Below are positions 33,497 through 55,643 of a stretch of DNA of 64,000 bases, one piece after another. The position numbers and the translations under genes were made by a program. The stretch comes from a virus. The stretch's first letter is position 1, and each line of letters begins with the position of its first letter. The stretch is taken from the IMG/VR virus record IMGVR_UViG_3300032323_001119, positions 1 to 64,000 of that record. One strand, given 5' to 3'. The notes below the pieces were generated by a model. That model had not been told where the DNA came from. It did no database searches and saw only the letters and a list, made by a program, of their open reading frames with translations.

Positions 33497-35560
33497 TTAC
33501 TTTCTCTCCTTAATAAATAGATCAGCATTCATTACTTTTGTCCAAGCAGAAACAAAATCTTGAACAAACTTATCTTTAGCATCATCTGAGGCATAAACCT
33601 CAGCAATAGCTCTGAGTTCAGAGTTAGACGCTAAAATTAAATCAACTTTTGGTACGTCTAAAGCATCGCTAGCATTTACATAAGAAAGCAATTTAACCAA
33701 ATAAGTGTTGTCCAGCTTATTATTCTTTAGCAATCTCATTCCAGATAGCAAGACTACCATGTCTACTGCCGTTAAGCCAAGCAGGTTAGATTTTTCTACA
33801 AGTAAAACTTCTTCTGGAGCAGTGACACTTTGGTCAATATAGTTGCGGAATGCATCAAACTTTGGCTCAAGAACTGAAAATGATTCAACATCTGTTTGCT
33901 CTTGTGTGGCATCCCCTCTTCCAATTTTTATCATTGGCTCAACATCTATACCACTATTGCCTGCGGCTGATTGGATACCAATCATTCCTCCTAATACAAT
34001 TAGGTCAGCAAGTGAAATTTTAAACTCATCTTTAATTGGATTTAAAACAGAAATAACCTTATTGATTACATCTTGATCATTTACCTTCCATGTATTTTGT
34101 GGAGCAAGGTTTATACGGGCACCATTAGCACCGCCACGCTTATCTGTCTTTCTAAATGTAGATGCAGATGCCCATGCTGTTGTAGTTAATTCATTTGGGG
34201 ATAGCCCAGAAGAAATAATTCTTTCTTTAATAGCGTCTACATCTTTTACTGATAGGCTGCTTCTTGTTGGATTGCCTACTGGATCCTGCCAAATAAGTTC
34301 TTCTGACGGAACTTCCTTACCAAGATATCTTGCAATTGGACCCATATCACGATGAGTTAGCTTGAACCAAGCACGAGCAAACTGATCTGAGAAGTAGTCG
34401 AAGTCTTCAAGGAATCTACGTGAAATCTTTTCATACTCTGGATCAAACCTCAATGCAAGGTCTGCTGTTGTCATAACTGGGGCATGAAACTTGCCTTCAA
34501 CATGTGCATCTGGTACTAAATTAGCTGCAGACTCATCTGTTGGAATCCATTGTGTTGCGCCAGCAGGTGATTTTGTTTGCTTCCATTCATACTTAAATAA
34601 TAACTTTAGGTATGAGTTATCCCACTTAGTTGGTGTTGCGGTCCATGCACCTTCAATACCGCTTGTGATTGTGTCTTCTGCATTGCCCTTACCAAATGAG
34701 TTCTTCCATCCAAGACCAAGGTCTTCAAGTGGAGCAGCCTCTGGATTAGGACCAACATGTGAAGGATCTCCAGCACCATGTGCCTTACCAAATGCGTGTC
34801 CACCTGCAATAAGAGCAACGGTCTCTTCATCATTCATCGCCATGCGAGCAAAAGTTTCACGAATGTCTCTTGCAGAAAGAACTGGATCAGGGTTTCCATT
34901 AGGCCCTTCTGGGTTTACATAGATGAGACCCATCTGAACTGCAGCAAGTGGGTTCTCTAGCTCACGGTCTCCGCTATAACGGTTATCTGCAAGCCATTCT
35001 TTTTCTGTACCCCAATATGTATCATCAGACTCCCAAACATCTTCACGACCTCCACCAAAACCAAAAGTCTTAAAGCCCATGTTTTCAAGAGCAACATTAC
35101 CTGCAAGAATCATAAGGTCTGCCCATGAAATCTTCTTGCCATACTTCTGCTTAATTGGCCATAGCAAACGACGTGCCTTATCTAAATTGCCGTTATCTGG
35201 CCAAGAATTTTGTGGAGCAAATCTATGTAGCCCTTCTCCAGCACCGCCACGACCATCACTAGTTCTGTATGTTCCTGCACTGTGCCATGCCATACGAATA
35301 AAGAATGGTCCATAGTTACCGTAATCTGCTGGCCACCACTCTTGTGAATCTGTTAAAAGATTGTTAATATCATTTTTAAGGGCATCAAGATCTAGGCTAT
35401 CGAACTCTTTTGCGTAATTAAAATCTTTTCCCATCGGATTAGATTTTTCTGAATTCTTTCGTAATCCTGATAGATCTAGCTTATTCGGCCACCAATCTTT
35501 ATTTGTTCTTGCTTCTGTGCTTGATGAATGTCCAGTTACTGGGCACTTTGCTTCGCTCAT
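33497..35560 (-). CDS. katG: Catalase-peroxidase (KatG)
   Basis: A 687-residue bifunctional haem enzyme that removes hydrogen peroxide. Distal residues R89, W92 and H93 ([13 protein letters not shown]) and proximal H255 ([11 protein letters not shown]) are intact. The Met-Tyr-Trp cross-link partners W92, Y214 ([10 protein letters not shown]) and M240 (FARMAMND) keep the spacing of the M. tuberculosis enzyme. Both duplicated domains are present and the gene is complete, only slightly short at the N-terminus. GAAAGAG precedes the start and two tRNA genes lie upstream, a common insertion point. A full-length katG in a phage is very unusual. Confidence 0.97.
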
Positions 35561-36975: not shown

Positions 36976-37518
36976 TTACCTTTCATTATCTTTATCTGGC
37001 CAACAAAATCCCACTAAAGCTTGTCGTGACCCTCCAGTTACTTCTTCTACGTTATGCAATAAATCTTTTTCACCTTTAAAAAATACAAGCATTCCTGGCT
37101 CTGGAATAAGCACCAAGTTGTGGTTAATAAATTTTAATAGGCCTCCACTAAAATCATTGTTTAGATAAAGTAAAGCTGAAACATCTTCTTGCTGAGACTG
37201 CTCTTGATTATCCCAATGTGGGGGATTTACTGCTCCTCTTTCCATAATGCTGTGGAACATGGATTTTATCTTCATTTTTGTCCCGTAATGATTTGATATT
37301 TCATTAGATATTTTTTTTAACACTGAAGACTCAATGCTGTCTTCATTCATTAAATCATGATATTCTTTTTGATCAAAGGATATAGAAAATCCACTTTTAA
37401 TTAGTTCTGAGTCTGGAGTAGAAGTAACATCTTTGCTAAATTTACTTATTAGATTTTTACTTTCTTCTTTAGTTATAAATCCTCTAATAACAAAAATTTT
37501 ATTTAAATATGTTTCCAC
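36976..37518 (-). CDS. Fe(II)/2-oxoglutarate-dependent oxygenase
   Basis: A 180-residue P4H-like enzyme. Ligands H101-x-D103 (NPPHWDN) and H155 (LLHNVEEV); R165 (GGSRQAL) binds the co-substrate. Core strand LLYLNNDFSGGLLKF. All key residues present. Substrate unknown. Confidence 0.87.
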   Translation of the reverse strand: METYLNKIFVIRGFITKEESKNLISKFSKDVTSTPDSELIKSGFSISFDQKEYHDLMNEDSIESSVLKKISNEISNHYGTKMKIKSMFHSIMERGAVNPPHWDNQEQSQQEDVSALLYLNNDFSGGLLKFINHNLVLIPEPGMLVFFKGEKDLLHNVEEVTGGSRQALVGFCWPDKDNER

Positions 37519-37659: not shown

Positions 37660-37868
37660 TACTTTACGCCTTTCCCAAATATTGCCCATAATCTTTCATG
37701 AATAAAATACCCTGCTGCTTCAAAAACAATATATAATAATGCGCCTAGAGTTGCATACTCCCACTCGCCAGTAAATAAAAATATAATGCCAGCAAGAACT
37801 ACAAGGTGAAAGGTTTCCCAGCTTAAAGTTTTTATTGAACTTCTTTTATTTGATTCCATTTTGATCAT
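37659..37868 (-). CDS. DUF2061 membrane protein
   Basis: A 69-residue protein with two spans and the DUF2061 pattern KTLSWETFHLVVLAGIIFLF ... FIHERLWAIFG. Function unknown. Overlaps the end of the monooxygenase gene. Confidence 0.75.
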   Translation of the reverse strand: MIKMESNKRSSIKTLSWETFHLVVLAGIIFLFTGEWEYATLGALLYIVFEAAGYFIHERLWAIFGKGVK

Positions 37869-38643
37869 CTACCATTTCTTTTACTAAGTAATGAATTGAA
37901 GAAACATTGTTGTCAGATGGGTGATAGCTTATTAATAAGTCAGTAACTCCCATATTCTTCAATTTTAAAATTTCAGATTTAATTTTATCTTTGTTACCAT
38001 ACATAGTCCACTGTCCTGATCCTGGGTTACTATCTAGCATACCAGATATTTCTTCTTCTGAATCGTTTATTATTATGCTTATTGATACCATTTGTTTTTT
38101 ATTTACTATAAAGTCTGGATTATTTAAAGACTGCTTATACATGTTTAATGCAGATAAGTGAGTGGCATTATATTTTTCTGCCATCTTTTTTGTTTCATTT
38201 GAGTGTCCAGCCATTACAATTACAGGCAAGCTATCGCCTGCAAGCTCTACAAATTTCGACATCCATTTATCAGTGTACACAAGCCTTTTTTCAGGTGTCT
38301 CCAAATCCCCTATAGAAGAGACAAGATCTTCTAGTGAGCTTTCTTCTGAATGTATATCACCAGAAACAATATTTAACATTAGTCTATTTGGAGATATGTC
38401 TTTAAAGGCCTTGCACATCATGGCGCAATATTCTGGACTGATTGCATAGGTTCTAATTGCTGGCATATATTTAAATTTATGATTTATATCCAGAACCCTT
38501 GCTGCTTTAATCCAATTATCAGAAATTTTGGAATGATAGACTAAAAGCACTGACTCGTATTTAAACTCATCTAATATATTAGAAATTGATTTTAAATACT
38601 CAACACTGCTATTGTTTCCTCTTTCCATCCAGTGAAAGTTCAT
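37846..38643 (-). CDS. Luciferase-like monooxygenase
   Basis: A 265-residue TIM-barrel protein. Markers of the bacterial luciferase/F420 family are the flavin-contacting MLNIVSGDIHSE near residue 91 and a PVIVMAGHSNETKKMA strand later. No single key catalytic residue identifies the subfamily (FMN alkanesulphonate type or F420 type). Rare in phages; may alter sulphur or cofactor metabolism. TAGAAT lies six bases before the ATG. Confidence 0.6.
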   Translation of the reverse strand: MNFHWMERGNNSSVEYLKSISNILDEFKYESVLLVYHSKISDNWIKAARVLDINHKFKYMPAIRTYAISPEYCAMMCKAFKDISPNRLMLNIVSGDIHSEESSLEDLVSSIGDLETPEKRLVYTDKWMSKFVELAGDSLPVIVMAGHSNETKKMAEKYNATHLSALNMYKQSLNNPDFIVNKKQMVSISIIINDSEEEISGMLDSNPGSGQWTMYGNKDKIKSEILKLKNMGVTDLLISYHPSDNNVSSIHYLVKEMVDDQNGIK

Positions 38644-38712: not shown

Positions 38713-39792
38713 TTACTTCTTTAGCTTAACCTTTGCACGTGGGTTCTTTGCATTCCACTTCTTTGCTAGGTCATTGTACTCTGCAATAAAAGTTGCTCTA
38801 GCAATTGCTGCTTGTGCTTTTGCTGTTGCTTCCGCTGCTCTTGCTGCTGCTACTGCAGCTGTTGCAGTTGCTGAGTCAGTTGCAAACTTTGCTGCTGCAT
38901 CTGCTAGTGCTTTGTCTGATGCCGCCTTGTCTGCTGCACGACCAGCTCTTTCTGCTGCAAGTGCTGCGTTAGCGACTGCTAGCTCTGAAGTTCTAGTTGC
39001 AAGCTCGCCTGCAAGATCACGTACGGCAATTGTTGCAACTACAGAACCTACTGGTACTGCAAGGCCTGTTACGGCTGCTGCTACTGTTGCGTATGCTGTA
39101 ACAACTACTTGTCCAGAAGCAGGAAGTGTAACTGTCTGCTCCTTTGTTCCAATAGTTGCTACTGCTGTGTCTGTTGTTAGCGCTGTTACAATAGCTGCAC
39201 CGTTTGAGCTTACAAGAGTGTTAATTGTTGATCCACCCTTTAGGTTACCAAACACATCGTATCCTGCTACTCTGAGTGTTGCAACTGTTCCAGCTGCTCC
39301 AGATGATGGTGCAGTGATAGCGATTGAGTTCAAGGCACCTGCGGTACCCTGCACATAGTAAACTGTTGTAGTTCCAGCACGAGTGATTGATACTGTTCCT
39401 ACTGCTGTACTTTTAGTGTATACATAAAAGTCTGCTGAGTTTCCAGTCCCTGTTGAAACTGAAAGTGTTGATGAACCGCTTGAAGCGGTTACTGGTGCTG
39501 TTGGTGTTGCTAAAGCAGGTACAATAGTTGCATTGGTTGCAACTGCTGTTACAACTGTTCCAGTGTCAACTGATGTTACTGCAATACGCAATGCATCTGC
39601 TGCATCGATACTGTTATCTGCTGGCACTGGTAGTGCTACAGGAGTTCCTACTACTGTACCACCTGTTGCTGCAGATCCCGCCACCGTTAGGGTAACAGTT
39701 CCAGCATTAGCCTGAGCTGCTGGCGATACAAGCATTGTGCTAGTCAGGGCTGCAGCGATGATTAGCGATACTTTCTTAAATGAATTCATCAT
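38713..39792 (-). CDS. Secreted surface protein with Ig-like domain and coiled coil
   Basis: A 359-residue protein with a clear signal peptide (residues 1-30, ending AQANA). The middle is Thr/Val/Gly-rich beta sandwich; residues of about 260-345 are an Ala-rich coiled coil. The basic end is NAKNPRAKVKLKK. It resembles actinobacterial secreted surface proteins, so it may have been taken from a host. It could change the infected cell's surface. Not recognised as virion protein. Confidence 0.65.
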   Translation of the reverse strand: MMNSFKKVSLIIAAALTSTMLVSPAAQANAGTVTLTVAGSAATGGTVVGTPVALPVPADNSIDAADALRIAVTSVDTGTVVTAVATNATIVPALATPTAPVTASSGSSTLSVSTGTGNSADFYVYTKSTAVGTVSITRAGTTTVYYVQGTAGALNSIAITAPSSGAAGTVATLRVAGYDVFGNLKGGSTINTLVSSNGAAIVTALTTDTAVATIGTKEQTVTLPASGQVVVTAYATVAAAVTGLAVPVGSVVATIAVRDLAGELATRTSELAVANAALAAERAGRAADKAASDKALADAAAKFATDSATATAAVAAARAAEATAKAQAAIARATFIAEYNDLAKKWNAKNPRAKVKLKK

Positions 39793-39831
39793 TCTCCTTA
39801 TTTTAATCTAATTCTTAAACGAATCAGAAAC

Positions 39832-40002
39832 TTAGTGTAATTCTATCATTTTGACATGGAAAGAGCAAGGGTCTCCACCCTCATCCAATTCCTTCATTTC
39901 TTCTTCTGACATTGGTGGGCCATCATGCGTATCGCAAAACACGTCTGATATCCATCCTTTATCATAACCAAATTTAACCCAATCTTCAAATCCTAAATCC
40001 AT
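39832..40002 (-). CDS. Conserved small protein (56 residues)
   Basis: Pattern DWVKFGYDKGWISDVFCDTHDGPPMSEEE... with DPCSF, a pattern I associate with actinophages and actinobacteria. Possible metal site C-x2-H. Overlaps the thioredoxin gene by ten bases. Confidence 0.65.
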   Translation of the reverse strand: MDLGFEDWVKFGYDKGWISDVFCDTHDGPPMSEEEMKELDEGGDPCSFHVKMIELH

Positions 40003-40295
40003 TCAGATATCTCTTCTAGGAATTTATGCTTTGGCATTGCGCCCTTGGTTCTTTTTACTTCTTTTCCGCCTTTAAAAACAATTACTGTAGGCAAAGAAAT
40101 AACATTATACTTTTCTGCACTTATAGTGTTTTCATCAGCATCAATTTTTCCTATCCAAACATTATTTTCTGCTGCTATTTCATCTAAAATAGGAGAAAAT
40201 CGTCTGCATGGACTGCACCACTCTGCCCAAAAATCTACAAGAACTACGTCGTGAGACGATATAACTTCATCAAAATTACTATCAGTTACAATCAT
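39993..40295 (-). CDS. Thioredoxin
   Basis: A 100-residue complete thioredoxin with the active site W26-C27-S-P-C30 and cis-Pro loop SLPTVIVF. WCSPC differs from the common WCGPC. It can donate electrons to the ribonucleotide reductase and to the glutathione peroxidase, so those three enzymes may form one redox chain. Starts four bases inside the upstream gene. Confidence 0.92.
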   Translation of the reverse strand: MIVTDSNFDEVISSHDVVLVDFWAEWCSPCRRFSPILDEIAAENNVWIGKIDADENTISAEKYNVISLPTVIVFKGGKEVKRTKGAMPKHKFLEEISEWI

Positions 40296-40501
40296 TCTTT
40301 ATCCTTTAGGGCTTCTGCTGCATCATTAAATCGAATCATAAAATTTTGGATTACCCAAAATGTTGTTTCGCCAGCGTTTTTAGACATGGCTTCAGATGCC
40401 TCTGGAGTTCTATCTTCTTCCGCTAATGAATTATACCATTTCTGATATAGTTCATGACCAAGATCTTTAATAATTCCGTCTAGAACCGTTAGCTCAGCCA
40501 T
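40292..40501 (-). CDS. Small helical protein (69 residues)
   Basis: ATG 40501 overlaps the protease stop. Acidic helical with DGIIKDLGHELYQKWYNSLAE. Function unknown. Confidence 0.58.
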   Translation of the reverse strand: MAELTVLDGIIKDLGHELYQKWYNSLAEEDRTPEASEAMSKNAGETTFWVIQNFMIRFNDAAEALKDKE

Positions 40502-41666
40502 TAAGTTTTGCCATCCAAGCTGCTTTAGATGCATTAAGCTTATCTTGTGCAGCCTTTAGCTCAATGGCATACTGTGCTTCTGCTGCTGCAATTCCTGCAT
40601 TAACCTCAGCTCTGATCGCTGCTGCCCTTGCTGCTGCTTCTGCTGCCTTTGCTGCTGCTTCTGCTGCCTTTGCTGCTGCTTCTGCTGCTGCCTTTTCTGC
40701 TGCAGAATTATCAATCTTCTTAGGTAATTCAACAGGGATTGCAGTACTAGCCACATTTAAGGAACTTGGCATTAGCTTTGCAAATGTGCCTTGCCTTCCT
40801 TTTGTTTGCAAAGAGTTTGCAGATAACATAGAAATTAATTGGCTACCAGCAATTCCAGTTCTGCTAGATACAGACAAATAGGTTGCTGCTGCTACCTGTG
40901 TAGCAGATGATGTTCCAGCAATATTTTTTGAAACATTTCCTGGTCCTGGCAAACTCATGCTTCCTAGCGCAAAGAAGTCAAGTAAGGCTGAGTCGTTATT
41001 GCTGTATGAAGCAATCTCGCCAATCTGATCTACTGCTCCTACTGCTACAACATCTGAAATGCATGAAGGCCAATCAATTCTTGAGTAATCACGAGCATTA
41101 CCTACTGCTGAAAAAACTGGAATAGACATTGAATTTAAAGATTGAACTACAGAAATTGTACGAGTAAATGTTGGACAATACTGTGTTCCAGCCCTGCCCA
41201 GAAGTCCGTTACTTCCTTGAGAAAGTGATACTGCCTTTACATTATACTTTGATGCATTGTCTCTTACCCATGCAAGTGCTGCAGAGATTGTAGGCTCTCC
41301 TGCTGGCTTTCTAAGGCCAGCTGGGGTATTAGCAATAATCTTTACAAAAAGAATTTTAATATTAGGGTTAGTTCTTACTGCTGCGCTAGCCATAAATGTT
41401 CCGTGATCAAATCCATTTCTAGTAATAAGATCTGATGGCATTGATGCGGAGCCAGCTCCCTCTTGAAAGTTGGTTCCATTAGGGCAAAGAGCCCATTCAA
41501 GAATACAAACTTCTCCAACAATCTTTCCTTGTAGTTCTGGTAGTGATGTGTCGATAGCAGTGTCTAGGATAGCCAAGACTGGGGCATCGACATTATTAGC
41601 CTTTGCAATTGCAATAGGTGATAGAAGTGATAAAGTAAGTACCGCCGTTATTAGTTTATTTTTCAT
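40494..41666 (-). CDS. Secreted subtilisin-like serine protease
   Basis: A 390-residue S8 peptidase with a signal peptide (residues 1-23). Catalytic D35 (LAILDTAID), H88 (DHGTFMA), oxyanion N190 (SAVGN) and S253 (AGTSSATQVAA) are all in place. After residue 310 an Ala/Lys coil follows, like the Ala-rich repeats of other genes here. There is no propeptide between signal and catalytic domain. TATACT six bases before the ATG gives a leaderless message. Confidence 0.88.
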   Translation of the reverse strand: MKNKLITAVLTLSLLSPIAIAKANNVDAPVLAILDTAIDTSLPELQGKIVGEVCILEWALCPNGTNFQEGAGSASMPSDLITRNGFDHGTFMASAAVRTNPNIKILFVKIIANTPAGLRKPAGEPTISAALAWVRDNASKYNVKAVSLSQGSNGLLGRAGTQYCPTFTRTISVVQSLNSMSIPVFSAVGNARDYSRIDWPSCISDVVAVGAVDQIGEIASYSNNDSALLDFFALGSMSLPGPGNVSKNIAGTSSATQVAAATYLSVSSRTGIAGSQLISMLSANSLQTKGRQGTFAKLMPSSLNVASTAIPVELPKKIDNSAAEKAAAEAAAKAAEAAAKAAEAAARAAAIRAEVNAGIAAAEAQYAIELKAAQDKLNASKAAWMAKLNG

Positions 41667-41672
41667 ACCCTA

Positions 41673-41700
41673 AGTATACTAAATTGACTGGGTTTGTCAA
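41673..41700 (-). promoter_or_regulatory. Promoter TTGACA-16-TATACT, leaderless
   Basis: TTGACA (41700-41695) and TATACT (41678-41673), six bases before the protease ATG. The -35 overlaps the stop of the gene upstream. Confidence 0.75.
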
Positions 41701-41849
41701 GACTTTGGCCGATACCATTTCCCTGAATCTAATTCAAGACCTGACTTTTCGTTAATAAGATCATTTACAAGAACTATCAGTATATCTGTTACGGCGCTGA
41801 GCTCTTCTACTCTATTTTCAAGAGCCTTTATTTTTTTAGATTTCCTCAC
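41697..41849 (-). CDS. Small coiled-coil protein (50 residues)
   Basis: GTG start inside the end of the upstream gene. Helical KKIKALENRVEELSAVTDIL. Function unknown. Confidence 0.55.
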   Translation of the reverse strand: MRKSKKIKALENRVEELSAVTDILIVLVNDLINEKSGLELDSGKWYRPKS

Positions 41850-42207
41850 TATTTGCCTTATCTATGGGTGTAGGTGCAGTAGCCAAACTACCGCACATCA
41901 TGCATTCCATATCTAAAAAGTAATTAGATATTTCATAATCTGAGAATGTTACCTTTAGTAGCCAAACTTGTGAACCACAAGGGCAGGTGTGAGTTGGTGT
42001 GCCTCTGAGATCCATTGCATTATCATAATCAATAGGGGGTATGTAGTTAGGGTCACTTTTAACAATTGATATCAGTGCGTCCTGTACAGCCTCTTCGTAC
42101 TTATCAATGTAATAAAAGCCCACTTTAAATCTTTTAAAAAACATTCTAAGAAAAAATGTTAAAAGAATTGCGCTTATTGTTACAGATATAATGAATGCAA
42201 TTTTCAT
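41836..42207 (-). CDS. Membrane-anchored zinc-ribbon protein
   Basis: A 123-residue protein: N-terminal membrane helix (residues 3-21), then THTCPCGSQVW and ECMMCGSLATAPTP, a four-Cys zinc ribbon of a type seen in phages. TATAAT six bases before the ATG. Confidence 0.65.
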   Translation of the reverse strand: MKIAFIISVTISAILLTFFLRMFFKRFKVGFYYIDKYEEAVQDALISIVKSDPNYIPPIDYDNAMDLRGTPTHTCPCGSQVWLLKVTFSDYEISNYFLDMECMMCGSLATAPTPIDKANSEEI

Positions 42208-42221
42208 ATAATCATTATACC

Positions 42222-42779
42222 TTAAACTTGAATATATGTATAGGGTGCTGCTACGCTCATATTAAATTCAGTTGCAGCTTCAAGAGCAGCTTTTAGTCTT
42301 AGTTTCGGGTTCTTTTGATTTTTTGTGGCATATAAAGCACCAAGTGCTATCTGACCACCGCTTCCCTCAGCCATATAATTTACAACATTTTCTCCAACAT
42401 GAAAGTCTTCATCTACAGTAAAAAGCCTTCCGCATACACCAACTATAAATATTCCTCCAGTGTCTTCATCTGAAGAAGATCCTATGCTGCCGTATCCGTT
42501 ATCTTTAAATGCCTGCTTAACTGAGTCTACAAATTTAGTTCTCATAAACTTATCTAAGCCTGAATTAGTTTTTGTTGGAGTATATTTTGGTGGAGTCCAA
42601 GAATACTGCAGAATCTGTCCCATTCTAAATGAATCAGTAAAAGCTATTCCGTACTGTCCAACCTTGAAACACTTTGGTTCTTTTCTAGATATGATCCAGC
42701 CAGTTTTATCATCTGAGGCTGCGTGGTCGGAACCCATATAAACTGTCCCATTTTGAGCAATAGCAACTATACATGTCAT
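42222..42779 (-). CDS. Ntn-hydrolase, proteasome-beta/HslV-like
   Basis: A 185-residue protein starting MTCIVAIAQNGTVYMGSDHA, the fold signature of N-terminal nucleophile hydrolases; T2 would be the nucleophile after Met removal. A Gly-rich turn AEGSGGQIALGALYA matches the proteasome beta family (GSGGxxAxGaL). Could be a peptidase or amidase. Related small proteins are known in phages. Leaderless (TATACT six bases upstream). Confidence 0.65.
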   Translation of the reverse strand: MTCIVAIAQNGTVYMGSDHAASDDKTGWIISRKEPKCFKVGQYGIAFTDSFRMGQILQYSWTPPKYTPTKTNSGLDKFMRTKFVDSVKQAFKDNGYGSIGSSSDEDTGGIFIVGVCGRLFTVDEDFHVGENVVNYMAEGSGGQIALGALYATKNQKNPKLRLKAALEAATEFNMSVAAPYTYIQV

Positions 42780-42811
42780 GATACCAGTATACTATTTATA
42801 AATTCGTAGTG

Positions 42812-43117
42812 CTAGTCCTCATTTATGTGAATTTCAACATGCTCTAATTTAAGCAGGGACTCTTCTAGGTCCGCCTTAACATGAATTAGCTCCTGTAAAG
42901 CCTCATAATATTTATTTTTCCATTCATCTAGATCTTTTTCTAATTTATATAGCTTTATCTGCAAATCTTTAAGCTCAATTAAAAGTCCATCATGGAGTTT
43001 TTCTTGAAGTCTAATCTGCTCTTTTTTCTTTTCTCTTTTATAATTAAACAAAACACCTATTAAGCCACTAGAAACAGAGGCCAAGATAGTTATAATTATT
43101 TGAGTAGTATTTAGCAT
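42812..43117 (-). CDS. Membrane-anchored coiled-coil protein
   Basis: A 101-residue protein with one N-terminal span (IIITILASVSSGLIGVLF) and a long Lys/Glu/Leu coiled coil to the end. This is the layout of an i-spanin, though an actinobacterial host has no outer membrane in the usual sense. A membrane tether is an alternative. Confidence 0.6.
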   Translation of the reverse strand: MLNTTQIIITILASVSSGLIGVLFNYKREKKKEQIRLQEKLHDGLLIELKDLQIKLYKLEKDLDEWKNKYYEALQELIHVKADLEESLLKLEHVEIHINED

Positions 43118-43147
43118 TATTACATAATTATACCGTAATATATACCT

Positions 43148-43384
43148 TTATACGAGCAGTTCAGAAGCCTTTATTTCTTCTCCAACATATTTCTTTTTGG
43201 CGATATAGTCTTTTACTGTTTCGTGACCATATTGTCTACCAGATAATATTACAGTCCATCTAGGCTCAAATTTATTAGATATACATGTTTCACACATTAG
43301 CAAATTAATTGGCAAAAGTGAGGACCTTTTTAAGTTCAAGTTAGCCTTGCTCTTATTGCAGCTATAGCATAGCACCTTTTCCAC
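43148..43384 (-). CDS. Zinc-ribbon protein (78 residues)
   Basis: VLCYSCNKSKA and LMCETCISNKF are two CxxC pairs. WTVILSGRQYGHETVKDYI follows. A pattern I associate with actinophages, function unknown. One-base overlap with the next gene. Confidence 0.65.
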   Translation of the reverse strand: MEKVLCYSCNKSKANLNLKRSSLLPINLLMCETCISNKFEPRWTVILSGRQYGHETVKDYIAKKKYVGEEIKASELLV

Positions 43385-43842
43385 TATTCAATTACCTCTC
43401 TGTCGCATTGGGTGTTAGCAAAAAATCTTTCTGAATCAAATCTCCAGCTATCTAATGAAAATATCTTTGCAAAATCATAAACTAAATTAGAGTATGTCTC
43501 TTCGTCTGTCTTGTCTTTAACCTTTAATATTGCATCCGTTGCTTGATAATACTGTTCTCTTAAAAATACACACTCTCCTGCTGGAGGCCTTCTAAGAACT
43601 TTTGAATGCACCTTGCCGCTAGGCTCATAAAGAGTTACTGTAAGAAAATGTTTTGCAAATCCCCAGTCTTTGTACTCATTGTATCCATTAACTGCAAGCA
43701 AGGCGTCTGGCCACATATATATTGCTCTTTCTGGATACTCTCCGTCTCTAGATGTAGTTAGCATATACATACCCTTTGGATCTTCTTTGTATGCAGCAAT
43801 CTGTACTTCATGCGATGCGTGTGCTTTTACGTACTCTGACAT
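43384..43842 (-). CDS. Conserved phage protein, fused homologue of two early genes
   Basis: A 152-residue product. Residues of about 25-95 align with the 18906-19112 protein (DWGFAKHFLTVTLYEP) and residues 97-145 with the 19109-19303 protein (DFAKIFSLDSWRFDSERF). The genome thus holds both a fused and a split copy. Function unknown. Confidence 0.68.
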   Translation of the reverse strand: MSEYVKAHASHEVQIAAYKEDPKGMYMLTTSRDGEYPERAIYMWPDALLAVNGYNEYKDWGFAKHFLTVTLYEPSGKVHSKVLRRPPAGECVFLREQYYQATDAILKVKDKTDEETYSNLVYDFAKIFSLDSWRFDSERFFANTQCDREVIE

Positions 43843-44033
43843 TAATTTATCTCCTTGTTTATTTTGATTTCATCTAAAATAATAAAATCATTAGAATCAA
43901 AAGGCTCTACAACCTCTTCAAAACCGTCGTGATACTTTATTGCTGACATATAAGCTCCATAAGAAACAATTATGCCATGCTTTTGCTCTGGTATTATAAA
44001 TACCTTCGAAGGTATATCAAATTCTTCTTCCAC
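43842..44033 (-). CDS. Small protein, GTG start preferred
   Basis: The GTG at 44033 follows GAGGG and gives 63 residues (M-EEEFDIPSKVF...). An ATG at 44096 would overlap the upstream gene by 80 bases without a ribosome-binding site. Acidic beta-rich, function unknown. Confidence 0.5.
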   Translation of the reverse strand: MEEEFDIPSKVFIIPEQKHGIIVSYGAYMSAIKYHDGFEEVVEPFDSNDFIILDEIKINKEIN

Positions 44034-44340
44034 CTGGCTTGCCCTCCAACTCGACTCGTACCCCGTATGATTCCAGGATCCTTTTAACCATTTCAATATA
44101 ATCTATAACTTTTAATCTCATACTTCCATCGTACTGTGAAAAATTATCTTCATATAATCTTATTGCTAAAAACTCAGGATACTTTACTATATCCATCTGT
44201 AAGTCGGTAGAAGGGCTTTTTAGCTCTCTGACCTTTCGTGACATTTCTTTTGTATAAAAAACTGGTTTATTTGCTTCACCAGTCCATTGATTAATTCCAT
44301 ACTTAAAGTGATTTTTATCTTTATCTATAAAGTTAGCCAT
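44017..44340 (-). CDS. Conserved phage protein (107 residues)
   Basis: Contains NHFKYGINQWTGEANKP and YIEMVKRILESYGVRVE. Not assigned. Overlaps the oxygenase gene by eight bases. Confidence 0.6.
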   Translation of the reverse strand: MANFIDKDKNHFKYGINQWTGEANKPVFYTKEMSRKVRELKSPSTDLQMDIVKYPEFLAIRLYEDNFSQYDGSMRLKVIDYIEMVKRILESYGVRVELEGKPGGRRI

Positions 44341-45040
44341 TTAGCCACCTTTCAAGTGACTCCTTTGACCTATCTTTTATTGCTTCAAGATACTCTGGCG
44401 TGTTATAGTGCAAGAATGTTCCAGGAGACATACCAATCTCAGTTGCAAACAAAGAATAGGCATATCTAGTACCAGATAAAACTGGTTTTGTTCCATGGAA
44501 ATATGGTGCTTCTGCATGGTGAATTATTACATCTCCAGGCTCTGGTTTATAAGAAAGCTTTCCTTCTGGTGAAGGATCGTACTCATCTAATAATTTACCA
44601 CTCTCATCAAATGCTGGATAGAAAACTTCCCCACCTTCAAAATCACCTAGATATGCAACTAAACCATATGATATAAGGCTGCATGTACCATATCCATCTT
44701 CTTGAGTTAGCATGTCTCTATTCTCCATGCCAGGGCTATCACAATGAACAAACATTCCTGCTTGACCTGGCCTTGAAGCAATAACCTTATCCTGTGGGTT
44801 AATGATGTATTCTGGATAAATTAAATCAGAAACTTTTTCCCAAATATCAAAGAACTCTGGTATTGAAGGGCTCATTTTATCATAATACCATTCGATAAAA
44901 TCATCATCTTCCCAAAATTCTTTAGGGTCTATTGTTTCTAAAAGAGAAACAAATTTGTCTACCATGTCTTTAGGTATATATCCTTTAAACAAATATATCT
45001 CATCTGCTAGCTTTATGCATCCTGGCTTATCCGAAAACAT
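44333..45040 (-). CDS. Fe(II)/2-oxoglutarate-dependent oxygenase, paralogue of 12332 gene
   Basis: A 235-residue protein. H99-x-D101 (MFVHCDSPG) with the distal His of YFHGTKP and Arg of SGTRYAY. Aligns along its whole length with the 12332-13180 protein and shares the C-terminal LHYNTPEYLE. Two paralogues with separate context suggest distinct substrates or doses. Confidence 0.88.
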   Translation of the reverse strand: MFSDKPGCIKLADEIYLFKGYIPKDMVDKFVSLLETIDPKEFWEDDDFIEWYYDKMSPSIPEFFDIWEKVSDLIYPEYIINPQDKVIASRPGQAGMFVHCDSPGMENRDMLTQEDGYGTCSLISYGLVAYLGDFEGGEVFYPAFDESGKLLDEYDPSPEGKLSYKPEPGDVIIHHAEAPYFHGTKPVLSGTRYAYSLFATEIGMSPGTFLHYNTPEYLEAIKDRSKESLERWLNG

Positions 45041-45041
45041 T

Positions 45042-45353
45042 TTAACCCCCGTGTTTTTTCTTTAAGATCTTATCTATATCTTTAGTTTTGTGTATATTTT
45101 TTGATTTATCTCTTACCCCATTAGACAAGTATACACCACCCCATACGCCATAGTTCTCAGACTCTTTACCGTATTCATAGCATATTGCTATCACTGGGCA
45201 GGATATGCATGCTTGATCAATGCTTTTTGCAACATTGATGTCGGACTCATATAGATCAAAAAATAGGTTAGTGTCCATGCCTAAGCATAGGGCAAGATCT
45301 TGCCATTGAACTGAGTCTTTATCTACCCCTAGGCTATTTAAAAAATTTGACAT
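45042..45353 (-). CDS. WhiB-family transcription factor
   Basis: A 103-residue WhiB-like protein. Four cysteines C23, C49, C52 and C58 (ALCLGMD, ACISCPVIAICYE) bind a [4Fe-4S] cluster, and G69-V-W-G-G73 is the turn that contacts sigma factor. A basic tail (KILKKKHGG) could touch DNA. WhiB proteins are restricted to Actinobacteria and their phages, which identifies the host phylum. It may tune host or phage promoters. Confidence 0.92.
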   Translation of the reverse strand: MSNFLNSLGVDKDSVQWQDLALCLGMDTNLFFDLYESDINVAKSIDQACISCPVIAICYEYGKESENYGVWGGVYLSNGVRDKSKNIHKTKDIDKILKKKHGG

Positions 45354-45564
45354 ACTTTACTGGCAGCCTCCATGTTCCGTCATTTTCAACGAAAAATTTC
45401 TCTGCAGTACCCCAATCATTTCTAAACATTCCTTTAGGGTTTGTAAAACCAGAGGCATCCTTTTTCCAAACAACTAGGTCGTAGTTTTCCCAAAACGCTT
45501 TAACGTTTTTATGTTTATTTTTTTTAATTAGAACTTCTACACCAAGCTCAGTTAAGTTAAGCAA
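45334..45564 (-). CDS. Conserved small phage protein (76 residues)
   Basis: Contains FWENYDLVVWKKDASGFTNP and the Trp-rich end GTWRLPVKYVKFF, a pattern I associate with actinophages. Function unknown. Overlaps the WhiB start. Confidence 0.62.
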   Translation of the reverse strand: MLNLTELGVEVLIKKNKHKNVKAFWENYDLVVWKKDASGFTNPKGMFRNDWGTAEKFFVENDGTWRLPVKYVKFFK

Positions 45565-45580
45565 CTAACTTCCTATCTAG

Positions 45581-45664
45581 TACCCATAGTCGGATTTGAA
45601 CCGACACTCCACAGTTGGAGGCAAATTTTAAGTCTGCTGCGTCTGCCGATTCCGCCATACGGGC
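45581..45664 (-). tRNA. tRNA-Leu (anticodon UAA)
   Basis: 84-base class II tRNA with a long variable arm (CTCCAACTGTGGAG). Anticodon stem GCAGA/TTTGC around CTTAAAA, T loop TTCAAAT, acceptor GCCCGTA/TATGGGT. CCA not encoded. UUA is a frequent codon in AT-rich genomes. Confidence 0.92.
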
Positions 45665-45679
45665 ATAATGCTTAACATT

Positions 45680-45708
45680 ATTATACCGTGATCGACATAG
45701 CATGTCAA
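45680..45708 (-). promoter_or_regulatory. tRNA promoter TTGACA-17-TATAAT
   Basis: TTGACA (45708-45703) and TATAAT (45685-45680), 16 bases before the tRNA-Leu. The -35 overlaps the stop of the 45705 gene. Confidence 0.8.
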
Positions 45709-45851
45709 CTGTTTTTTGAAGTTTTTAATATTTTGACAGACTTTATTTCATCATCTATATTAAATATATCTGATATATAGTCCTTGGCATCATCTTCGGA
45801 AAAAGCTTCAACTTCTGCTATTACCTCTAACTTAATGCTGTATTTGTTCAT
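45705..45851 (-). CDS. Small acidic protein (48 residues)
   Basis: ATG 45851, with TATAAT six bases upstream (leaderless). Alternating beta/alpha: SIKLEVIAEVEAFSEDDAK. Function unknown. Confidence 0.58.
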   Translation of the reverse strand: MNKYSIKLEVIAEVEAFSEDDAKDYISDIFNIDDEIKSVKILKTSKNS

Positions 45852-45863
45852 AATATAATTATA

Positions 45864-46154
45864 CTACTGTTGAGCTTTTTTATCTACTGATGTAAATGCT
45901 GCATTAATTTCATCAATTGTTAGTTTGCCGTCGTCTAGAAAACCTCTTGCAAGCCTTTCAACCACGGTGGCAACGCCAAGAGTACCTGCTAGTATTACTG
46001 CTTTATATGTTTCTATTCCTACGACTGCGCCTGCTCCAATTACTGAAAGACCAGATGCGGCAAATACGGCTACTATACGCATAAATATATTGTTTATGCT
46101 TGCTATAGCACCTCCGCCAACATGCTGTGGTTCATTAATATTTTTTCTTGCCAT
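45864..46154 (-). CDS. Candidate holin with EF-hand-like motif
   Basis: A 96-residue protein from ATG 46154 (after GAGGAATAAG). Two hydrophobic spans (IVAVFAASGLSVIGAGAVVG and AVILAGTLGVATVV) and DDGKLTIDEINAAF, a calcium-like loop at the C-terminus. The design mirrors the 8297-8539 protein with the loop at the other end. Confidence 0.55.
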   Translation of the reverse strand: MARKNINEPQHVGGGAIASINNIFMRIVAVFAASGLSVIGAGAVVGIETYKAVILAGTLGVATVVERLARGFLDDGKLTIDEINAAFTSVDKKAQQ

Positions 46155-46155
46155 C

Positions 46156-46338
46156 TTATTCCTCATTTCTATTTCTAATCGGACTTGTAATTATCCAAAG
46201 AGCTGTGGTTGCCATGATTCCATAACCAACAACAGTCTTTGCACTTCCGTCCAGAACTACCCAAGCAATAAACATACCAAGAAGGGTCCATGCTTGGTCA
46301 ACCATATCCTTTAGAATATTTTTTACTATTCTTACCAT
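46156..46338 (-). CDS. Two-span membrane protein
   Basis: A 60-residue protein after GGAGGAAG. Two hydrophobic helices (TLLGMFIAWVVL and TVVGYGIMATTALWIITS) and a charged end. With the holin-like gene next to it, a holin/antiholin pair is possible. Confidence 0.58.
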   Translation of the reverse strand: MVRIVKNILKDMVDQAWTLLGMFIAWVVLDGSAKTVVGYGIMATTALWIITSPIRNRNEE

Positions 46339-49172
46339 TTTCTTCCTCCTCGTGAACCTGGTGAATTTGCTCCTGACGAGCCTCCCCCAGAACTTCCTCC
46401 GCCTGTACCTGTGCCACCCCCTGTGGCTCCTCCTGCAGCGACTGCTGCTGCGTTAATCGCTGCACCTGCTGCTACAACTGTAGCAACTACCATATCTGTT
46501 GCTTCTTCTCTTTCTTCATCTGACATATCAGCGCCAATACTTCCAAATGCTGCTAATGCTGCTGCTGGATTAGTAAATAATTCTTCTACCAGTGCTCCTG
46601 GGTTCTGTAGTAATTCTACTTGAGCAGCGACTTCTGCAGTAATCACAACTGCATTTCCATTTTCATCAGTACGAATATCTACTGGTGTTGATGGTGGCAA
46701 ATCAGAATATGATACACCTGCTGCTTTTATATCTGCAGATGAAACGGCTTCTCCAGGTTTAATTTCTTCAAGCAGTTTATTTACAACTACTTCTTTTTGT
46801 TTTTCAGTTAACTTACCTTCTTCTGCCGCTTTCTTTAATTCCTCTGCTTCCTTTTTTGCTGCTTCTAATTCTGCAGCTTTTGCTTCAGCTTCAGCTTTTG
46901 CATCTGCGGCTTCTTGTGCTTTAGCTTCCGCCTCTGCCTTAGCATCTGCTTCTTCTTGAGCCTTTGCTTCTGCTTCAGCCTTAGCATCTGCCTCTGCCTG
47001 CGCTGCCGCTTCAGCCTCAGCCTCTAATCTATCCGCCTCTGCTTTTGCATCTGCTTCAGCTTGTTCTTTGGCTTCTTGTTCTGCCTGCGCTGCTGCTTCT
47101 TCTGCTGCTATACGATCAGCCTCTGCTTTAGCAGCGGCTTCCTCTGCGGCTACACGGTCTGCCTCAGCCTTAGCTGCCGCTTCTTCTGCGGCTTTAGCTT
47201 CTGCTTCTGCTTTTGCTGCAGCTTCCGCTGCTGTTTTGGCGGCTGCTTCTGCGGCTGCTGCTTGTGCAGCTGCTTGTTGTGCTGCAGCCTCCGCTGCTGC
47301 TGCTTCTTGTGCTGCTTGGGCTGCTGCAGCTGCTGCTGCGGCATTTGCAGCGGCTTGTGCTGCTGCTTGTTGCTCTGCATAATAATTAACTGTAACCTGT
47401 GCTGCATTTGTCATTGCAGTTACTGCTTCATTTACTTTAGTTATTGCTATATTAGCCAATGTATCTGCTGTCTGTACAGCTACTGATAGATTTTGATTTG
47501 CAGTTGCAAGGTTCTGCTGCTCTGTTGATAAGGTTTGATTAGCATTAGTTAAATTTGTTTGAGCAGCTGTTAGGTTTGTTTCTGCTACTACCTTTTCTGC
47601 TGTGACAGTTGTTAATACTGCTGTGCTAGCAGCAAGATCAGTAGTGGCTGATTGTAATGCTGCTACCTGTTGTGGTGTAGCAGATGATGTTGAGAACTCT
47701 GATGCTGGAATTACTTCCCAGGTTGACCCGTTATATCTACGTAATGATACTGCTGCCCCTCCACCATTTTCGTAATACCACATTTCAAGGGTCTTTCCAA
47801 CACCAGCAGTAGTTTCAACATCTGCTGTGGATCCTCCACCACCCTTGTCAAACCAGTCATTGATAACGGTCTGCCCGTCTAGCTTTAAAAGAACTCCGTC
47901 ATCTGCAGGTGCTGTAATATATTGCGTTCCAGTAGTTTGTGGAGTCCAGATACCATCCCATTTAACCTGAAATCCTTCTGTAATTGTTGTAGTTCCTTGC
48001 TTAGTTGCAGACACATTGTCTACTCCATAGTAGTCCCAATTTGCTGGTATATTTATAGATGCAATCTTTTTGCCTTCTGGGGCAGTAATAACTTCTTGAT
48101 GCACATAGCTAGGGTATGTTGAGTTAACATTATCCTGAATATTAAAAGTGCTTGTAGTTCCATCAGTGTATGTAACTACTGCATTATGATCTCCATTTTT
48201 AGCAAAGACTTGGAAGCTTGCAGCAACTGTATTTGCTGGCATGGTAATAAGAGTGTCTGCAGTTGATCCTCTAAGAGTTAGGGATGGATCTTGTCCAGGA
48301 CCAGGAAATCCAATAGACCCAATATATACTTGATTATTATTTGTAGTTGAGACTGGAGTTCCATTTACTGTAATTCCTATCTCAGTGTTTAGTCTATTAT
48401 TAGCAAAGGTTTCGGTTACTGTTGTTGTACCGCCATTTACTGTCGGTCCTCCACTACCCCACTGCTCATTAATTCCATTTGTATCTTTTCCAGTGTAAAC
48501 AACTGTTCCTTCTCCAACTGTGGGAGAAGCTCCATTATCTGCGCTATCAATAACTGTTATATTTAGTCCAAGAGAGGTATTTGCATTTACTACTGCTGTG
48601 GCAGACTCTACAGCTTCTGCCTTTACCTCTACTACTGCCGTCTGAGATTCAACTGCTGCTGTTGCTGTAGCCAATGTAGTAGTTGCTGTGGCGACTGTTG
48701 CTGTAGCTGACTCAACTACTGTTACTGCTGTAGCTACCACTGCTGTCTGTGAATCAACATTAGCCTGTGCTGTTGTGGCAACTGCTACGGCTGTCTCTGC
48801 AGATTGAATAGCAGTATTCGCTTCTGACACCTTTACTGTTGCCTCTGCGACTGCTGTGGCTATAGGCTCTTGAGTTGTAGCAATTTGGGTAGCAGTCTGA
48901 GTATCTGTGTTTGGAACATTGGATTGAATAGTATTTACAATAGCTGTTGCTTGAGTTTCAGCAGCTTGCTGTAGTGTTGTTTCTGCTGTTTCTATTTTAG
49001 CTGCAACTGTCTCAACTGTAATAGGAGTGGTTGCTGTGGCTGTATCTGAAGATGGGTTTGCTGGAGTTACTTGAACGGTAACTTCTTCAGCATGTGCGTT
49101 GCTTGGTCCAAAAAGAAAGAGCCAGCCGATTATAAAAAGGCTGGTTAAAAAATACTGTAACTTTCTAGTCAA
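46332..49172 (-). CDS. Giant secreted Ala-rich protein with PA14 domain
   Basis: A 946-residue protein with TTG start after AGGAG. Residues 1-28 are a signal peptide (FLTSLFIIGWLFLFGPS, cleavage near AHA-EE). Residues of about 400-470 are a PA14-type carbohydrate-binding domain (WTPQTTGTQYITAPADDGVL, LKLDGQTVINDWF). Residues 580-740 are an Ala/Glu/Lys coiled coil, the last 100 Gly/Ser-rich with a hydrophobic stretch. Probably exported to the cell surface. It could mediate aggregation, wall binding or superinfection effects. Confidence 0.72.
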   Translation of the reverse strand: MTRKLQYFLTSLFIIGWLFLFGPSNAHAEEVTVQVTPANPSSDTATATTPITVETVAAKIETAETTLQQAAETQATAIVNTIQSNVPNTDTQTATQIATTQEPIATAVAEATVKVSEANTAIQSAETAVAVATTAQANVDSQTAVVATAVTVVESATATVATATTTLATATAAVESQTAVVEVKAEAVESATAVVNANTSLGLNITVIDSADNGASPTVGEGTVVYTGKDTNGINEQWGSGGPTVNGGTTTVTETFANNRLNTEIGITVNGTPVSTTNNNQVYIGSIGFPGPGQDPSLTLRGSTADTLITMPANTVAASFQVFAKNGDHNAVVTYTDGTTSTFNIQDNVNSTYPSYVHQEVITAPEGKKIASINIPANWDYYGVDNVSATKQGTTTITEGFQVKWDGIWTPQTTGTQYITAPADDGVLLKLDGQTVINDWFDKGGGGSTADVETTAGVGKTLEMWYYENGGGAAVSLRRYNGSTWEVIPASEFSTSSATPQQVAALQSATTDLAASTAVLTTVTAEKVVAETNLTAAQTNLTNANQTLSTEQQNLATANQNLSVAVQTADTLANIAITKVNEAVTAMTNAAQVTVNYYAEQQAAAQAAANAAAAAAAAQAAQEAAAAEAAAQQAAAQAAAAEAAAKTAAEAAAKAEAEAKAAEEAAAKAEADRVAAEEAAAKAEADRIAAEEAAAQAEQEAKEQAEADAKAEADRLEAEAEAAAQAEADAKAEAEAKAQEEADAKAEAEAKAQEAADAKAEAEAKAAELEAAKKEAEELKKAAEEGKLTEKQKEVVVNKLLEEIKPGEAVSSADIKAAGVSYSDLPPSTPVDIRTDENGNAVVITAEVAAQVELLQNPGALVEELFTNPAAALAAFGSIGADMSDEEREEATDMVVATVVAAGAAINAAAVAAGGATGGGTGTGGGSSGGGSSGANSPGSRGGRKW
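46860..47390. repeat. Low-complexity Ala-codon array
   Basis: Repeated GCT/GCA/GCC-rich codons encode an Ala/Glu/Lys coil in the PA14 gene. The opposite strand shows long false ORFs for the same reason. Confidence 0.85.
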
Positions 49173-52762: not shown

Positions 52763-53365
52763 TTATTTCTTTTTGGCTGTTGGTTTTGCTTCTGTCTTTA
52801 CTGCAGCTTTTTTAACTGCTGGCTTATCTGACTTTGGCTTAACTGCTTGACCGAATGCTGGTCTTCCAAATCCTACAATAAATACTGGCTGCGACTTACG
52901 AAGCTTTGAGCCGTTCTTCTTTTTGTATGCACGATTCTTTAGGCATGCCTCTCCACCATTTCTCTGATCTCCCTTTTTATCTGGGCTGGTGTTTCCTTCT
53001 GCAACATCGACTGTTCCATCTGTATTAACTGCAGTTACAATTCCTACGTGAGAAATTCTGTCGACCCCATCATTTGGAAAATCAAAATAGACAATGTCTC
53101 CGACTGCAGGTGCTGCTGTCTCTACTGGTTGCCATGTTCCTGCTTTAATAAATGCTTGTGCTCCTGCTGGAGTGTAAACTGTATTGGGGACTTTTACGCC
53201 AGCTTCATTGGCGCACCACATAACAAACGATCCACACCAAGGCTGGAAATTAGCTTTTGTAAACTTTCCATACTTTGTTTCATTATCTTTTGGACCCTCT
53301 ATGTATCCAATTTCGCCTAATGCTACTTCTACTAATCTTGCTGCTGATCCTTGTACTGCTGCCAT
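52763..53365 (-). CDS. CHAP-domain endolysin
   Basis: A 200-residue wall hydrolase. Catalytic Cys in QPWCGSFVMWC, His in RISHVGIVT and Glu/Asn in AEGNTSPD form the CHAP triad. A Lys/Ala-rich tail (residues 165-200) may bind the wall. No signal peptide, so it needs a holin. Complements the exported lysozyme-like protein. Confidence 0.87.
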   Translation of the reverse strand: MAAVQGSAARLVEVALGEIGYIEGPKDNETKYGKFTKANFQPWCGSFVMWCANEAGVKVPNTVYTPAGAQAFIKAGTWQPVETAAPAVGDIVYFDFPNDGVDRISHVGIVTAVNTDGTVDVAEGNTSPDKKGDQRNGGEACLKNRAYKKKNGSKLRKSQPVFIVGFGRPAFGQAVKPKSDKPAVKKAAVKTEAKPTAKKK

Positions 53366-53841: not shown

Positions 53842-55643
53842 ATTATCTCCATACTTTCTATAGATCTAGCTAAACTTTCTGGCATTCTTGGTGCACGAAT
53901 CATGTTTTGGACATACTCTACTTCACCGTCGTTTCTGTTGGCAAAATCGTTATCGTAACTCATTGATTCGTAATCATGAATCTTTATTTCTTCATCCCTT
54001 TTTATTCTACTTCTGCTTATAGCATTATATATAGCCCCACATACAGCGTCAGCTAAATCTTTAGAGCCTTTTCTTGGGTGATCTACTTTATCTCTCATAA
54101 TTCTTAATTGAAGTAATTCGTCTATAAGCAAGGGTATGTGTGGACCAGATAATCTTTCTTCTAGTACAACCATAGCCATGTCGTCATAATGTTTTTTTGC
54201 AACAGAAAGGATTTCTGTATTAATGCCATATGTTTTTAGTTGCTGCATCATATCGTGAGAATTCCATCTGTCAAATGTACAGACTTTTATGTTGAACCCC
54301 CTAGTTTTTAAAGAAAGGATATAGTCTTTTACTTCTGTAAAGTCTACAGACTTATCTGGTGTTGGCGTCCAAAATCTAACTGCATCAATTTCTACAATAG
54401 GTGCTGGCTGGTTATATGTATCTGTCACCTTTATGTCAACCCATTTATTTACATGTCCCATTGCTACTGCACAATGATCATGCTTTTGAGCTAAGTCTAC
54501 ATGTATAAAGTAATCTTTTCCTTCTTCTGGCTTAAACCATTCCTCAAGCCTTCCAAAATTATCTACTGCTAGGTGAGCTTTATTAAATGCCTTTTCAATT
54601 TTTTCTCTAGACTTAAAAAATGCATCAACTGCATCTGATGGCATGCATGCAAATCTTCCTAGTGCGTCCGCTGGATTTTTATGAAATGCAACAGTAAAAT
54701 CTGTTATTTTTTTGGTAGGATTAACTTCCCACGTTGGTCTTTTTAAAGCAAACACTCTTGGATAAACGTAAGAAACTATATGATCCTCTTCCCATGAAAC
54801 CTCAAACTCATTGCCCTCTGTACCGTCTGGAAGATCTTGGTCTAGCTTTAATATTTCTGTTCTAATTATTGTTTCTTTTTCTGCTATCACAGACTGATAA
54901 AATTTTTGTATAGGGTCATTTTTAAAACGAGGGAAGGAAAGCAGTATCACCTTACCGAAATCTGGAAAACGAGAATCTACAGATGCACGATACATATCGT
55001 ATATGGCATCTGCTGTTTTTGCTTGGTCATGGCCGCTTGTATTCTCTGTTGCAAATCCAGAAATTTCATCAAGGATAACTACAAGAACGTTGTAACCTTC
55101 CCAAGCTTCTCTTTCAGAGTGACCTGAATGAACGGTTATTGATTTATCAAATTTAATCTCTGATGCTTTATCTGTATATTTTCCAGCAAACCATGGAGAC
55201 GACTCAATACGCATCTTAAATCCTTTAAAGAAAACATTGTTTGCCTGCTGTGCGTTAATTGCAATATTAAGTATGTCTATTGCATCTCTTGGTGGCTTAC
55301 CATAATATGCTGCTGGATCTTTTAAGCACAGCAATAAATAAACAATGTATGCTACGGCAATAGTAGAAGAGTAATCTTTGCCAGAACCTTTTCCTAGCTG
55401 AGCAATAACCTCGACACAAGTTTGCCTAAACATCTGCTTTCCAAGATCTTCTCCGTAAAGTTTTATCAAAGTAGATTCTTTATATATCTGAGAACTTCTT
55501 GCAATTAAAGTGTACTGATTTTCAGACAGTGGGGGTAGGCCTAAATAGTCTGGGCTTGTAACAAAAGTTTTAAGGTCTACTGGCCTTTCTTCAAACTCTT
55601 CCCCGTCAAGAATCTCTATAAAATCAGAAAAATCAAACGCCAT
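53838..55643 (-). CDS. Terminase large subunit
   Basis: A 601-residue packaging ATPase/nuclease. ATG 55643 follows GAAGAG and is preferred over a TTG at 55655. Walker A-like QLGKGSGKDYSS near residues 82-93, Walker B VVILDEISG near 188-196, and the nuclease metal motif HVDLAQKHDHCAVAMG in the C-terminal half with LADAVCGAIYNA later. It cuts and pumps DNA into the prohead. Overlaps the small subunit by 11 bases. Confidence 0.9.
   Translation of the reverse strand: MAFDFSDFIEILDGEEFEERPVDLKTFVTSPDYLGLPPLSENQYTLIARSSQIYKESTLIKLYGEDLGKQMFRQTCVEVIAQLGKGSGKDYSSTIAVAYIVYLLLCLKDPAAYYGKPPRDAIDILNIAINAQQANNVFFKGFKMRIESSPWFAGKYTDKASEIKFDKSITVHSGHSEREAWEGYNVLVVILDEISGFATENTSGHDQAKTADAIYDMYRASVDSRFPDFGKVILLSFPRFKNDPIQKFYQSVIAEKETIIRTEILKLDQDLPDGTEGNEFEVSWEEDHIVSYVYPRVFALKRPTWEVNPTKKITDFTVAFHKNPADALGRFACMPSDAVDAFFKSREKIEKAFNKAHLAVDNFGRLEEWFKPEEGKDYFIHVDLAQKHDHCAVAMGHVNKWVDIKVTDTYNQPAPIVEIDAVRFWTPTPDKSVDFTEVKDYILSLKTRGFNIKVCTFDRWNSHDMMQQLKTYGINTEILSVAKKHYDDMAMVVLEERLSGPHIPLLIDELLQLRIMRDKVDHPRKGSKDLADAVCGAIYNAISRSRIKRDEEIKIHDYESMSYDNDFANRNDGEVEYVQNMIRAPRMPESLARSIESMEII

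Follow-up and report, generated by a model that had tools for sequence, protein, structure and literature searches.

The window analysed here comprises bases 1-64000 of a 110,437-bp IMG/VR virus record (IMGVR_UViG_3300032323_001119). In the region from 38713 to 49172 of its minus strand lie genes for an Ig-like protein (IG), a subtilase and a protein with a PA14 domain, the last with a TTG start; all three open reading frames are as the first-pass annotation described them (Table 1). Related loci indicate that the IG gene, and the PA14 gene together with the gene of the small membrane protein TM60, are allele-swapping cassettes, whereas the subtilase is inherited vertically. A rule-based scan for an n-region, a hydrophobic core and an AxA site, run on 166 non-overlapping open reading frames of the whole record, recovered the signal peptides proposed earlier on the three proteins, and among plausible genes it found a Sec signal with an AxA site only in these. 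Besides these, the scan picked up one membrane protein and two plus-strand frames that lie antisense to real genes. Homologues from related contigs retain the signal: it was scored in every distinct Ig-like protein (122/122), in every subtilase (107/107) and in 93 of 123 PA14 proteins, but in only 1 of 559 genes of seven control families. Among the PA14 misses listed, the majority are truncated, wrongly started or have an acidic residue close to the cleavage site. The prediction that all three proteins are exported through Sec is thus supported. Ala-rich coils, also noted earlier, were found in all three, but the coil is missing from roughly half of the subtilase homologues that were aligned.

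Table 1. Features of the three predicted exported proteins and of the associated genes, in coordinates of the window
Feature	Position	Strand	Basis
Ig-like predicted exported protein IG, 359 aa	38713..39792	-	ORF, homologues, AlphaFold2
IG signal peptide, residues 1-28, MMNSFKK...PAAQA	39709..39792	-	signal scan; 122 of 122 distinct homologues
IG swappable beta region, residues ~29-258, tandem Ig-like domains	39019..39708	-	AlphaFold2, Foldseek, nucleotide identity
IG long helix and conserved basic C-terminus [YF]NxLAxKWNxKxPKAKV	38716..39018	-	AlphaFold2, homologue motif
Predicted exported S8 subtilase, 390 aa; this member has an Ala-rich C-terminal coil	40494..41666	-	PF00082, alignment
Putative promoter TTGACA-16-TATACT, ends 6 nt before subtilase ATG	41667..41700	-	consensus match only
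Holin-like two-helix protein, 100 aa, overlaps TM60 stop	45864..46166	-	CHAP endolysin often in its place in relatives
TM60, 60-aa two-helix membrane protein, start overlaps PA14 stop	46156..46338	-	swapped together with PA14
PA14 predicted exported protein, 946 aa	46332..49172	-	Pfam, homologues, structure model
PA14-protein signal peptide, residues 1-28, ...SNAHA	49089..49172	-	signal scan
Beta region (residues 199-363) and PA14 domain (370-498)	47679..48578	-	PF07691, structure model, Foldseek
Ala/Glu/Lys-rich coiled coil, residues 500-784	46821..47675	-	structure model
Conserved C-terminal domain, hydrophobic helix 885-913, Gly-rich tail	46335..46820	-	homologues, structure model
CHAP endolysin	52763..53365	-	directly 3' of TM60 in many relatives

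A first exchange test, on loci picked by similarity to the IG and PA14 proteins, was set aside because that set was ascertainment-biased; 80 loci were therefore fetched with the neighbouring gene 44017-44340, located between the IG and PA14 genes. Among non-redundant loci, the Mantel rho against core genes was 0.04 for IG and 0.08-0.12 for the PA14 regions, in contrast to 0.83 for the subtilase, 0.81 for WhiB and 0.78 for h123, and other genes follow the core too. Phylogenetic dependence remains in the Mantel permutations, and Ig homologues too diverged for BLAST are uncounted; the argument for exchange is drawn from the contrast of IG and PA14 with control genes of the same loci. The six Ig alleles are scattered almost at random over the core tree, where they require 19 changes (mean of shuffles 21.7, standard deviation 1.6; 13 of 200 shuffles as low), whereas the six subtilase types need 5, which is the minimum (shuffled 20.1). 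The subtilase is among the genes building this tree, which favours it there; in the Mantel test it stood outside the core.

The boundaries of exchange are visible in nucleotide comparisons of close relatives. The Ig beta region shows 54-57% identity between phages that are 92-97% identical upstream, and in pairs whose two flanks each agree at about 97% the Ig domain falls to 56%, with identity restored at the gene ends or within 60 nt of them. For one pair (L273/L291) identity is 97% over the 1.8 kb upstream and 98% over the leader, drops to 72% in the signal and 56% in the Ig domain, and recovers to 100% across the final 78 nt and to 98% downstream; in another (L286/L281) the exchange also takes in the C-terminus and the first 60 nt past the gene. 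PA14 and TM60 are replaced jointly, with 97-100% identity downstream, as in L272/L265 (98% upstream, 49% in the PA14 body, 69% in TM60 and 100% in h76). Divergent subtilases were found in none of 98 close pairs. Allele exchange between near-identical genomes is a signature of strong diversifying selection.

The linkage of these genes is conserved. In more than 100 related contigs the order is PA14, TM60, a holin-like protein or CHAP endolysin, and further on subtilase, h80, thioredoxin, h56 and Ig; in a second clade, the Ig gene is located directly between the terminase and PA14 genes. The region lies downstream of the terminase and also holds many unrelated genes (thioredoxin, WhiB, HslV-like, 2OG oxygenases). 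Among these, the HslV/proteasome-beta-like protein (42222-42779, minus strand) is over 80% identical in many relatives and is kept in nearly all neighbourhood loci. In one relative (L240:14304-15668), the IG slot is occupied by a different protein of 454 aa, which has a signal-like N-terminus and a Gly-rich C-terminus like that of the PA14 protein.

The AlphaFold2 model of IG (mean pLDDT 82) consists of an all-beta tandem Ig-like region and a 90-residue helix, and its Foldseek matches include invasin/intimin and Big-1 proteins. This resemblance is structural only: no match to a Pfam Big family was found and Invasin_D3 was detected in 1 of 42 homologues, while IG itself has no family match in Pfam, PHROG or NCBIfam. 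The basic C-terminal motif is conserved across IG allele types and absent from cellular proteins of similar architecture. Relatives of IG were recognised as 496 pattern-matched stretches in viral contigs. A host origin of the gene was sought with a profile scan and a C-terminal-motif scan of 84,980 prokaryote genomes (GTDB) and gained no support; the 44 pattern matches included no confirmed relative, and the 19 motif matches were chance or unrelated. The earlier statement that these proteins resemble host surface proteins is therefore not supported for IG, and it applies to the subtilase only in its generic likeness to cellular S8 proteases. LPXTG motifs, SLH domains and Pfam matches indicative of sortase or SLH anchoring were absent from both the IG and PA14 proteins.

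In the PA14 protein, the signal is followed by a helical bundle, the beta region, the PA14 domain, a long coiled coil and the C-terminal domain with its hydrophobic helix. The PA14 domain matches PF07691 (E 8e-8, 32.6 bits against a cut-off of 24), as do 27 of 31 homologues. Its Foldseek matches include 6x7j, 6xa5 and 5j6y, and the closest solved structures include the Marinomonas PA14 sugar-binding domain; the likeness to PA14 lectins is one of fold only, and the sequence contains an ADDG motif. The PA14 lectin domain of the Marinomonas MpAFP/RTX adhesin shares the fold (TM-score about 0.5 on the domain), but the phage domain is flanked by coiled coils and belongs to a protein coupled with a two-helix membrane protein. 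From the anatomy of the whole protein, we infer a type I membrane topology.

The connection with TM60 is close. The PA14, TM60 and holin-like genes overlap by a few bases, and the last PA14 codons double as the Shine-Dalgarno sequence of TM60; the conserved PA14 C-terminus SRGGRKW had been considered as a sorting signal, a candidate that was dropped because the same codons serve this purpose. TM60 and the PA14 C-terminus covary at 0.78. A relative of the PA14 protein occurs in the distant Actinomycetia phage DSL-LC01 (OQ999401), a metagenome-assembled lake phage (PMC10611076). It is 36% identical over residues 268-385, has a signal-like N-terminus, and ends in a TM60-like segment (a weak match, E 0.003-0.02), which is probably a PA14-TM60 fusion; it differs in this apparent fusion and in having Thr-rich linkers in place of the Ala coil. 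The covariation and the segment of DSL-LC01 suggest that the PA14 protein and TM60 act together. The same covariation and gene overlap, with the CHAP gene directly after TM60 in many relatives, would also be expected if PA14-TM60 were a lysis or envelope-disruption accessory, in which a tethered lectin aids the holin and CHAP endolysin, the subtilase digests surface protein and IG is unrelated. We regard this as a rather unlikely alternative, since it leaves unexplained why the PA14 ligand region is swapped wholesale among phages that are otherwise near-identical, and why this region covaries with the distant Ig gene. The PHROG 26427 "nuclease" label on 45864-46166 is probably wrong, the match being the holin-like protein itself.

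The subtilase belongs to the S8 family (PF00082, E 1.5e-13, 51.2 bits against a cut-off of 21.8). In 26 aligned homologues the catalytic triad D35, H88 and S253 and the oxyanion N190 are invariant, as in the S8 subtilisins with solved structures (Savinase, proteinase K), and four Cys are invariant as well, which suits an exported enzyme. It differs from these subtilisins in that the signal runs almost into the catalytic domain, the catalytic Asp being residue 35, 12 residues past the predicted cleavage; there is no room for an Inhibitor_I9 propeptide, which is absent together with any further Pfam hit, and an Ala-rich coil occurs in some members. A catalytic protease with conserved Cys, in a genome whose further auxiliary genes include those of KatG and an IMPDH-domain enzyme, might suggest that the subtilase and the binding proteins gather nutrients or aggregate debris for the infected cell, in the manner of auxiliary metabolic genes. 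Such scavenging seems very improbable: it gives no reason for allele swapping, and a metabolic or transport partner is absent nearby.

The terminase is about 65% identical to those of Streptomyces phages of Stanwilliamsviridae, and the record contains a WhiB gene. WhiB is restricted to actinobacteria and is a marker used for recognising freshwater actinophages (PMC6802176). From these two features, the host is very probably an actinobacterium, and the wider virus group, which is common, probably infects freshwater actinobacteria. The head and tail genes (portal, head protease, major head protein, Ig-domain tail protein, tape measure and tail proteins) are located at 71-99 kb of the record, with the tail fibres at 98-110 kb and 1-8 kb. 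All three genes lie outside this module, and none of their products has a structural PHROG match. The annotation had named virion membership of all three as the finding that would speak against its reading; their position makes such membership unlikely. Ig-like and PA14 domains are known in phage tail proteins, and virion proteins are among the structural matches, as would be expected of minor tail or decoration proteins with unusual N-termini. This explanation is nevertheless very doubtful, since cleavable-type Sec signals are kept in all scored Ig and most PA14 homologues, the loci lie apart from the head and tail genes, and the alleles are uncoupled from the tail proteins.

Ig and PA14 alleles show weak covariation once the core is controlled for (partial values 0.21-0.32, permutation 1/300; 0.30 in a partly overlapping set, permutation 20/1000). 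The subtilase covaries with the tape measure (partial 0.35-0.45), which may reflect that the subtilase is a longer and less noisy marker than the averaged core genes. The export signals and the horizontal exchange of alleles argue for a surface role under diversifying selection. We tentatively propose, at somewhat less than even probability, that the Ig and PA14 proteins are exported, wall- or membrane-associated polymorphic ligands serving in phage exclusion or host-surface matching, with the subtilase in the same space. Surface recognition or exclusion is ranked most likely, since exported blockers of DNA entry are known (Ltp and CwpV); host-type matching is a close rival, and the lysis role of PA14-TM60 a further one. 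In host-type matching, swapping would be driven by the host, each allele fitting one surface glycan type. The likeness of the PA14 fold to sugar-binding domains agrees with this, and a host type common to both might lie behind the weak covariation of Ig with PA14, but the alleles are unlinked to tail-fibre content, which should track host type too (a comparison of low power). Host-driven swapping is given a modest chance. Slightly more probable, but still doubtful, is a surface "allotype" system in which Ig and tethered lectin types are shuffled by cassette exchange and the infected cell is recognised by, or closed to, rival phages.

Ltp of Streptococcus phage TP-J34 is an exported superinfection-exclusion lipoprotein that blocks DNA entry (PMC3952083). 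IG, as predicted here, resembles it in being phage-encoded, exported, exposed at the host surface and moved horizontally between phages; Ltp, however, is a small lipoprotein of temperate phages, whereas IG is larger and has Ig domains and a helix. An Ltp-type superinfection-exclusion lipoprotein was rejected for IG, whose cleavage region (PAAQA followed by NA) has no lipobox Cys at +1. CwpV of Clostridioides difficile is an exported cell-wall protein with five domain types that blocks phage DNA injection (PMC4737114). Compared by description, it is like IG in having a constant part alongside variable domains of a few discrete types, but CwpV is bacterial and phase-variable. Under the recognition or exclusion proposal, the PA14 protein would stay in the membrane with TM60 after signal cleavage, its coiled coil carrying the lectin domain through the wall, and IG would bind the wall by its basic C-terminus. 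Both would show polymorphic ligand domains on the infected cell, either keeping out rival phages or fitting the host strain's surface type, and the subtilase, active in the same extracytoplasmic space, would clear or process surface proteins.

Several observations weigh against this proposal. Export, location and function of the three proteins are predicted from sequence. The alleles have no significant link to the fibres, tape measure or tail tube of the same genome (17-18 genomes, crude measures), nor to its tail tip after allowing for the number of tests, and a matched self-exclusion system might show one. The GTDB scans, in which no cellular relative of IG appeared, can overlook host relatives that have diverged. 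A lysis role would suit PA14-TM60 as well, given its association with a holin-like gene and an endolysin, and the subtilase stands outside the swapping pattern, which leaves one joint programme conjectural. The remodelling of the cell envelope that was earlier attributed to the three proteins together agrees with their Sec export, linkage and location away from the structural module, but they do not form one coordinated unit, because the subtilase is inherited vertically while Ig and PA14 are exchanged. Remodelling may still occur; recognition or competition at the surface accounts for the population data no less well.

Most known exported surface proteins of phages come from prophages. In the present case, a predicted exported Ig protein occupies one slot in the genomes of a large environmental clade, apparently of freshwater actinobacterial phages, while its alleles are swapped. 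This singles out specific genes for studying competition between phages or matching to host type, which the isolation of Nanopelagicales phages (PMC10202952) now makes possible. Searches of the literature turned up no account of these proteins, and PADLOC gave no match.

Other genes of the record may be mentioned briefly. KatG is a full-length catalase-peroxidase (33497-35560, minus strand; NCBIfam PRK15061, 1085.6 bits), near which are a putative glutathione peroxidase read from the sequence (31259-31726) and a thioredoxin (39993-40295). The IMPDH-domain enzyme is another auxiliary gene besides KatG. The 265-aa product of 37846-38643 (minus strand) shows weak luciferase-like/alkanesulfonate monooxygenase similarity over its first 100 residues only. 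Relatives of 2OG-Fe(II) oxygenases are profile-confirmed only at 36976-37518 (Pfam) and 44333-45040 (PHROG), with possibly others in the record; two genes near 100-104 kb have weak BLAST similarity to the former. Many minus-strand genes begin 6-12 nt past a TATAAT-like hexamer without a visible Shine-Dalgarno sequence (examples are 41667-41700, 42222-42779, 45705-45851 and 55633-56172), which suggests leaderless transcripts. The subtilase mRNA is possibly leaderless.

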